In this document: one piece after another, positions 55,939 through 60,265 of the stretch | Numbering within the stretch: the first letter of the stretch is position 1 | Layout of the letters: each line of letters opens with the position of its first letter | Source: Elusimicrobiales bacterium | GTDB lineage: Bacteria; Elusimicrobiota; Elusimicrobia; Elusimicrobiales; UBA9959 | Length of the DNA stretch: 64,000 nucleotides | NCBI GenBank assembly: GCA_028713125.1 | Contig: JAQTOU010000002.1 | Span: forward strand, 1 to 64,000 | Direction of reading: 5' to 3' | The notes under the pieces: generated by a model | The model's database searches: none | Seen by the model: only the letters and a program-made list of their open reading frames with translations | What the model was told of the DNA's origin: nothing | Translations under genes and position numbers: made by a program

Positions 55939-56373
55939 ATGAAAGAATATGCGGACCTCGGGATGCATACCGCCGAGCATATACTGAACCAGACTATGGT
56001 GCGGATGTTCGGCTGCGGGCGGTCTTTCAGCTCGCACATCGAGAAAAAGAAATCAAAATGCGATTACAAATTCGGCAGGAACCTGACGGCCGAAGAGACC
56101 GCCGAGATAGAGAAGCGGGTAAACGAGGTCATCAAGGCGGACGCCATTGTAAGCGAAGAGCTCATCTCGAAGGAAGAGGCCGCGGGCAAGCTGGACCTCG
56201 GCCGGCTGCCGGAGGGGACGGGGGATAAATTGCGCGTCATCCGGATAGGTGATTACGACGCCTGCCCGTGCATCGGGAAGCATGTGGCTTCCACCGGCGA
56301 GATAGGCGGTTTCAGGATAGTTTCCAGCAGTTTTGAGGACGGGGTCCTGAGGTTAAGATTTAAATTAACGTAG
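55939..56373 (+). CDS. AlaX-type alanyl-tRNA editing protein
   Basis: The 144-aa protein carries the second-additional-domain (tRNA_SAD) zinc motifs: HTAEHILNQTM (HxxxH) near residue 10 and CPCIGKHVAST near the end, the CxxxH. This is the short AlaX form that hydrolyses misacylated Ser- or Gly-tRNA(Ala). It lacks the N-terminal beta-barrel of the longer AlaX, so it is AlaX-S. It acts in the cytosol as a quality-control protein. The gene is convergent with the next one; 14 bases separate their stops. Confidence 0.88.
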   Translation: MKEYADLGMHTAEHILNQTMVRMFGCGRSFSSHIEKKKSKCDYKFGRNLTAEETAEIEKRVNEVIKADAIVSEELISKEEAAGKLDLGRLPEGTGDKLRVIRIGDYDACPCIGKHVASTGEIGGFRIVSSSFEDGVLRLRFKLT

Positions 56374-56387
56374 CCGTTTTTTGCCGT

Positions 56388-59543: not shown

Positions 59544-59572
59544 TTGAAATTTCGGGTTTCGGGAGCTATACT
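59544..59572 (+). promoter_or_regulatory. Strong promoter of the small RNA
   Basis: TTGAAA (59544-59549), an exact 17-base spacer and TATACT (59567-59572). It is the best-spaced promoter in this part of the window and is not followed by any ORF. Confidence 0.82.
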
Positions 59573-59578
59573 ATATTA

Positions 59579-59694
59579 GCGGTGGTAGTGCGGTGAAATG
59601 GGGTGAGTATGGAGCCCATGTAACAGCGCAGCGGCAGCGGAAAAAAGCCGCGCAAGTGAAGGAAAGCCGGGGGAGTTTCCCCCGGCTTTCATTT
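59579..59694 (+). ncRNA. Probable structured small RNA (or pilin leader), about 115 nt
   Basis: The transcript would begin near 59579 behind a consensus promoter. It contains a hairpin ATGGG...CCCAT (about 59598-59619) flanked by GCGG and GCGC, then GCGGC-AGCGGAAAAAA-GCCGC (about 59630-59651). It ends at a 13-bp GC-rich hairpin, GAAAGCCGGGGGA/TCCCCCGGCTTTC (59662-59690), followed by ATTTAG. No ORF longer than a few codons fits inside. I compared it by memory with SRP, 6S, RNase P and common riboswitch motifs and found no match. It could be a free small RNA or an attenuator-type leader of the prepilin gene 68 bases downstream. Confidence 0.6.
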
Positions 59695-59761
59695 AGTTCC
59701 CGGGGCGGCCGCGCATTTTACGGGATTCCCGCTAATTAATATACTATTCCGAATATATCCT

Positions 59762-60265
59762 ATGAATCACGCAAGAAAAAAACTCATGTCCGGCTTCACT
59801 CTTATCGAACTGATGATAGTGGTAGCCATCATCGGCATTTTGGCTGCCGTCGCGATCCCCAAGTTCGCCGACCTGATAAATAAATCCCGGGAAGGATCGA
59901 CCAAGGCCAATCTCGCCTCCGTCCGTTCGGCTTTAAGGATATATTACGGAGATACGGAGGGGATCTACCCGGGCGACAATCTCGCCTGCCTTACCGCCAA
60001 CGCGAAGTATCTTGGCGAGATCCCCGCGGCAAGGGTGCCGTCGTACCATGCGGCCACCAGCAAAGTCTGCACCGGGATGTATGCGGCCGGGGGCTGTGTA
60101 ACCGGTTTGGGCGCGCCCTCGATGTGGGACGACCACCTTGGAGCGCTGTGGATCTACTGGGAGACGGATACCCCGCCTATGATGGGAACGCTACGCCAGA
60201 AGGGGGATTTCTGGATCGGCTGCACCCATCTGGACTCCAAGGGCGCAGGGTGGTCCACGTTCTGA
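59762..60265 (+). CDS. Type IV prepilin (major-pilin type)
   Basis: The 167-aa protein has a short basic leader and the prepilin peptidase site: Gly11-Phe12 in LMSGFTLIELMIVVAIIGILAAVAIP. Glu5 of the mature pilin is present (E16 of the precursor). The C-terminal part has a disulfide-type pair of Cys and the YPGDNLACL and GAGWSTF ends. The N-terminal sequence is like PilA and TapA. No assembly genes are next to it. The start has no good Shine-Dalgarno, and TATACT (59740-59745) is 16 bases upstream. Confidence 0.93.
   Translation: MNHARKKLMSGFTLIELMIVVAIIGILAAVAIPKFADLINKSREGSTKANLASVRSALRIYYGDTEGIYPGDNLACLTANAKYLGEIPAARVPSYHAATSKVCTGMYAAGGCVTGLGAPSMWDDHLGALWIYWETDTPPMMGTLRQKGDFWIGCTHLDSKGAGWSTF

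Follow-up and report, generated by a model that had tools for sequence, protein, structure and literature searches.

Does the promoter-terminator unit that lies directly before a pilin-type gene in the window (the whole 64,000-nucleotide stretch of DNA analyzed here) encode a free regulatory RNA, or does it serve as a riboswitch-like leader of that gene? The initial annotation offered both readings. On the plus strand, a sigma-70-type promoter, TTGAAA-17-TATACT (59544-59572), scores 10 out of 12 and is the top of six promoter-like sites in 7 kb, compared with 2.3 such sites in shuffles. The predicted small RNA extends from 59579 to 59694 on the same strand, with its 5' end placed from the -10 box and its 3' end from an intrinsic terminator hairpin (59662-59690, plus strand) of 13 pairs, nine of them GC. 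The promoter, the transcript of about 115 nt and the 13-bp terminator hairpin were all found as initially described, and the unit has the own promoter and intrinsic terminator of a stand-alone small RNA gene. For the 118-nt predicted transcript, the computed folding energy is -53.6 kcal/mol (z = -4.49), a value that none of 200 shuffles reached. Some read-through past the terminator is possible because the T-tract that forms its tail in the window genome, ATTTAGTT, is poor.

The view that the RNA belongs to no known class was borne out by a covariance-model scan against Rfam 15, which gave no match at the gathering threshold in the window, nor in 12 loci comprising seven family members and five loci from a promoter search. 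Two matches below threshold, both resting largely on the terminator hairpin, were rejected: sraA (RF02029), with 26.4 bits on the opposite strand against a gathering score of 56, and ar35 (RF02346), with 21.3 bits against 45.

In a DNA search of 61 genomes (the source genome and 60 relatives), homologues formed a clear series within the same genus. The small RNA is present in 10 of 32 genomes of this genus, all Elusimicrobia MAGs, with one copy per genome; nine carriers were obtained by a pattern search and the tenth, G017, by the DNA search. R1, a covariance model of the small RNA core, scores 57-77 bits in exactly these ten carriers among the 32 genomes, all other matches being at most 24 bits, and the weaker matches that were read (L060-L079) resemble chance matches. 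A longer model, R3, gives 87-108 bits for the same ten carriers and matches the window at 59579-59696 with 106 bits. Its matches elsewhere in the genus, at most 36 bits, were considered as divergent members and rejected, since all nine that were viewed look like gene-end terminators. Some of the 22 genus genomes without the small RNA are incomplete MAGs. Recovery of rpoB from 14 of the 32 genomes and of aspartokinase from six yielded too few sequences for a genus tree.

A search of 340 genomes of the phylum confirmed no member beyond the ten carriers. Eighteen other genomes of this set have weak matches, none above 28 bits, which were not taken as members; the weak matches viewed, eight from the phylum together with the weak ones from the genus, lie in or beside apparent coding sequence and are devoid of the promoter and core. 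A search of the source genome for further copies returned only the self match and the opposite strand of the small RNA's own terminator, and no copy was found in viral contigs. An exact 22-mer had no match in the genome contig collection. A gapped pattern matched eight named records, these being MAGs whose titles read Elusimicrobia or only bacterium; GWC2_64_44, GWA2_61_42 and NC_groundwater_1302 are among them.

The family RNAs are about 110-135 nt long. Four elements recur in all ten members: the terminator, a GCGGC/GCCGC hairpin, AUGGAGCCCAUG without any variation, and the promoter, whose spacer always measures 17 nt. Across the family, GGGAGC at the end of this spacer and TATACTATA following the -10 box are also kept. 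Mean pairwise identity is 0.78 for the promoter and 0.77 for the core, versus 0.58 and 0.64 for shuffled sequences, and it is 0.60 for both the upstream and the downstream flanks, versus 0.61 and 0.60 for shuffled ones. Between the window genome (G000) and its sister G026, the core is 0.94 identical and the flanks are 0.66-0.67 identical. As judged by sequence comparison, conservation across the genus is stronger evidence for the small RNA than either the promoter score or the fold energy.

Two internal hairpins had been proposed initially, and they fared differently. The 3' one (59631-59651, plus strand), which is the GCGGC/GCCGC hairpin with an A-rich loop, is supported in all ten members, being 100% paired in the ten sequences with one two-sided compensatory change; the terminator has two-sided changes in 3 of 11 pairs across the family. 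One shuffle in 500 attained the covariation score over these two helices, which was computed on an alignment fitted to the tested structure, a fit that favors that structure. The 5' hairpin AUGGG/CCCAU (59598-59619, plus strand) is a prediction with no covariation, and the invariance of its 3' side leaves no room for any.

This invariant side belongs to the segment ATGGAGCCCATG (59609-59620, plus strand), which is identical in all ten members. In the predicted 5' hairpin, the Gs of a Shine-Dalgarno-like run pair with CCC, and AUGGAG lies in the loop. In the predicted ensembles, the mean unpaired fraction of AUGGAG exceeds 80% in five of the ten members (G000, G026, G014, G024 and G001), in which CCCAUG is less exposed and predicted to be paired, in several with the G-run. 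Exposure of AUGGAG is intermediate in G003, and it is not mostly exposed in G006, G017, G012 and G023.

The Shine-Dalgarno-like run itself, GGGGTGA (59600-59606, plus strand), precedes an invariant AUG and is present in all ten members. Averaged over the ten, pairing with the 3' end of 16S rRNA is strongest at -13 to -9, where a Shine-Dalgarno sequence usually lies, with a mean of -9.5 kcal/mol at -13 versus about -3.6 at -20 and -3.7 at -6. Compared with shuffled leaders, and with related sequences counted as independent, the run gave p = 0.06 in a first test with a shorter anti-Shine-Dalgarno sequence and a combined p of 0.002 with a longer one. The initial statement that the transcript holds no ORF is correct for long ORFs, but a 4-codon ORF, MEPM*, lies behind GGGGTGA (59609-59623, plus strand) and is presumably translated; on this sequence evidence, ribosome binding at the mini-ORF is likely. 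An ORF opens at the invariant AUG in every member, reading MEPM* in G000, G026 and G014 and MEPMQ... of 10-16 codons in the other seven (lengths of 4, 4, 4, 16, 14, 10, 10, 10, 10 and 11 codons).

One explanation of these data is that the RNA serves as the message for a genuine micropeptide (MEPM or MEPMQ...) and that its structure only terminates transcription. The presence of the run and the AUG in all ten members and the identity of the first four codons agree with this, but the peptide varies from 4 to 16 codons, three members stop directly after MEPM, two have a spacer that is 1 nt shorter and a frame shifted relative to the others, and the tail is not conserved. Moreover, the synonymous sites of Glu (GAG) and Pro (CCC) never vary among the ten members. 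As these sites are invariant despite the mixed codon usage of the window genes, in which CCC makes up 37% of Pro and GAG 58% of Glu codons, and as the tail is variable, we think that the constraint acts at least partly on the RNA letters of the segment and is unlikely to come from the protein alone. We consider the micropeptide explanation unlikely.

We instead propose, with moderate confidence, that the locus is a free-standing gene for a trans-acting small RNA of one Elusimicrobiota genus, in which AUGGAGCCCAUG is the contact site, perhaps gated by ribosomes. The small RNA would be transcribed from its own strong promoter, ended by the intrinsic terminator, and would act in trans via AUGGAGCCCAUG. 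This element sits at the start-codon position behind the Shine-Dalgarno-like run, and in the predicted fold its CCCAUG half is paired with the Gs of that run and AUGGAG is left in the loop; ribosome loading on the ORF of 4-16 codons would therefore open or cover the contact site, as in a ribosome-gated or dual-function small RNA. Bacterial intergenic trans-acting small RNAs have their own promoter, a length of 50-200 nt, an intrinsic terminator, a conserved segment and no long ORF. The present RNA shares all of these features; it differs in its detection in a single Elusimicrobiota genus and in that its conserved segment falls on a start codon behind a Shine-Dalgarno-like run. Dual-function small RNAs, such as SgrS and RNAIII, are regulatory RNAs with a Shine-Dalgarno sequence and a short ORF. 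The present RNA resembles them in its Shine-Dalgarno-like run and candidate short ORF, but this ORF has 4-16 codons and an unconserved tail.

If the contact site paired with one conserved mRNA start site, the RNA would be an antisense RNA in the narrower sense. The invariant 12-mer has the length of a seed, but the 17 non-self perfect 11-mer complements of ATGGAGCCCAT in the ten genomes all lie in apparent long open frames and none lies at a start; these complements include no target start site common to the ten genomes. Several of them fall in transketolase-like proteins and in proteins with MISMGSIMKEG, where the match is explained by protein conservation. We consider pairing with a single conserved start site unlikely.

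Turning to the neighboring genes, the pilin-type gene, which has an N_methyl domain (59762-60265, plus strand), lies outside the small RNA unit and has its own promoter-like site at 59717-59745, past the small RNA terminator. In the closest relative, G026, the small RNA is followed directly by an FMN-reductase gene with no pilin between; the pilin-type gene separates the two in the window genome, but not in this sister. According to gene predictions made from ORF length and GC3 without annotation, four of the ten members (G024, G017, G023 and G001) have a convergent next gene; in the other six this gene is on the same strand, but it differs among genomes. A comparison of homologues for a position upstream of pilin genes, as had been suggested, hence revealed no constant downstream gene in the ten members. 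The pilin leader or riboswitch reading is rejected on these grounds, whereas the other part of the initial interpretation, a free regulatory RNA of no known class, is upheld by the conservation of a unit that has a promoter and a terminator of its own and lies between diverged flanks. At the level of sequence, comparison demonstrates the conservation and anatomy of this unit and its independence from the flanking genes.

In its broader form, the leader reading has the unit act in cis on whichever gene lies downstream (here the pilin gene), as an attenuator or riboswitch-like leader that combines a leader peptide with a conditional terminator. Amino-acid attenuators have the order promoter, Shine-Dalgarno sequence, short ORF, hairpin and terminator, which the present unit resembles, and the weak T-tract in the window genome as well as the six same-strand neighbors would suit such a role. 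However, the RNA differs from amino-acid attenuators in that no downstream gene or operon is conserved, the neighbor being convergent in several members, and we found no competing antiterminator pairing with covariation that would make the terminator one of two exclusive structures. Together with the absence of the pilin gene from G026 and the promoter-like site of that gene, this makes attenuation a quite doubtful explanation. Titration of a CsrA/RsmA-type protein via the (A)UGGA loop motif is highly improbable: AUGGA is loop-exposed in several members and some carry two or three GGA, but just one GGA is conserved, and a search of 37 genomes found CsrA in none, its control detecting the protein in 3 of 14 known genomes.

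The free-standing small RNA favored here has company in the genus. A genus-wide promoter search revealed a second family of free-standing RNAs, about 90-125 nt long, that have a similar promoter; as the search pattern had TT one base off, first-family members counted as two to three mismatches and some were missed. R2, a covariance model built from four copies of the second family, has matches at E <= 0.001 in 27 of the 32 genus genomes; a match scores 49 bits or more in 26 of these, and G002 reaches 28.7 bits. An R2 match in the window genome (L111, G000:C24:87592-87680, minus strand) adjoins a gene that we take, from its sequence, to be pyruvate-kinase-like. The second family, sometimes present in several copies or tandem pairs, occurs in each of the ten genomes that have the first; one tandem pair in G017 (L130, C15:56143-56233 and 56294-56382) lies within 250 bases. 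The same type of promoter also precedes a short terminator-ended RNA-like stretch in G010 (L085, C22:23189-23219) that fits neither family well.

The second-family alignment comprises 30 matches from 29 of 30 loci (L109-L138; L135 gave none). In these RNAs, a GAGACCC lies downstream of a 5' hairpin and pairs with its loop, with 98.5% of cells paired and two-sided changes in five pairs, and the 5' hairpin itself, which lies outside the model, is 79% paired with two-sided changes in four pairs. The covarying loop-GAGACCC pairing and 5' hairpin support an H-type pseudoknot. Second-family RNAs end in a GGGCGGGCC terminator.

The motif G[CT][AG]GT[AG] (e.g., GCGGTG and GCAGTA) is enriched in the single-stranded linkers of both families, with 13 occurrences versus 1.7 expected in the first and 24 versus 2.8 in the second, as measured against mononucleotide shuffles among related sequences; in the window, the stretch concerned is 59579-59608. 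It is possibly a site for an RNA-binding protein. Additionally, an element GAGxCCCAUGCA is related between the two families. A promoter of this kind also seems to precede some protein-coding genes of the genus, so that a link between the two RNA families cannot rest on the promoter alone. With the promoter, the linker motif and the shared element combined, we raise as a speculative and rather unlikely idea that both families form a lineage-specific small RNA system, in which the window RNA would be a ribosome-gated member and translation of its 4-codon ORF would expose or hide the contact site. A duplex between first- and second-family RNAs was set aside, the computed pairing being long and of low specificity.

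Taken together, the comparison of sequences identifies a new, conserved small RNA gene in little-studied environmental bacteria, independent of the adjoining pilin gene, and removes the pilin-riboswitch reading as a wrong lead. We infer that this RNA is transcribed, translated and active in trans. Searches of the open PMC library brought up no paper on small RNAs of Elusimicrobiota, and a delimited, conserved small RNA with an invariant 12-nt element is a concrete entry point to them. Should the element formed by the Shine-Dalgarno-like run and the AUG prove functional, the small RNA would contain a translated element of unusually short length.
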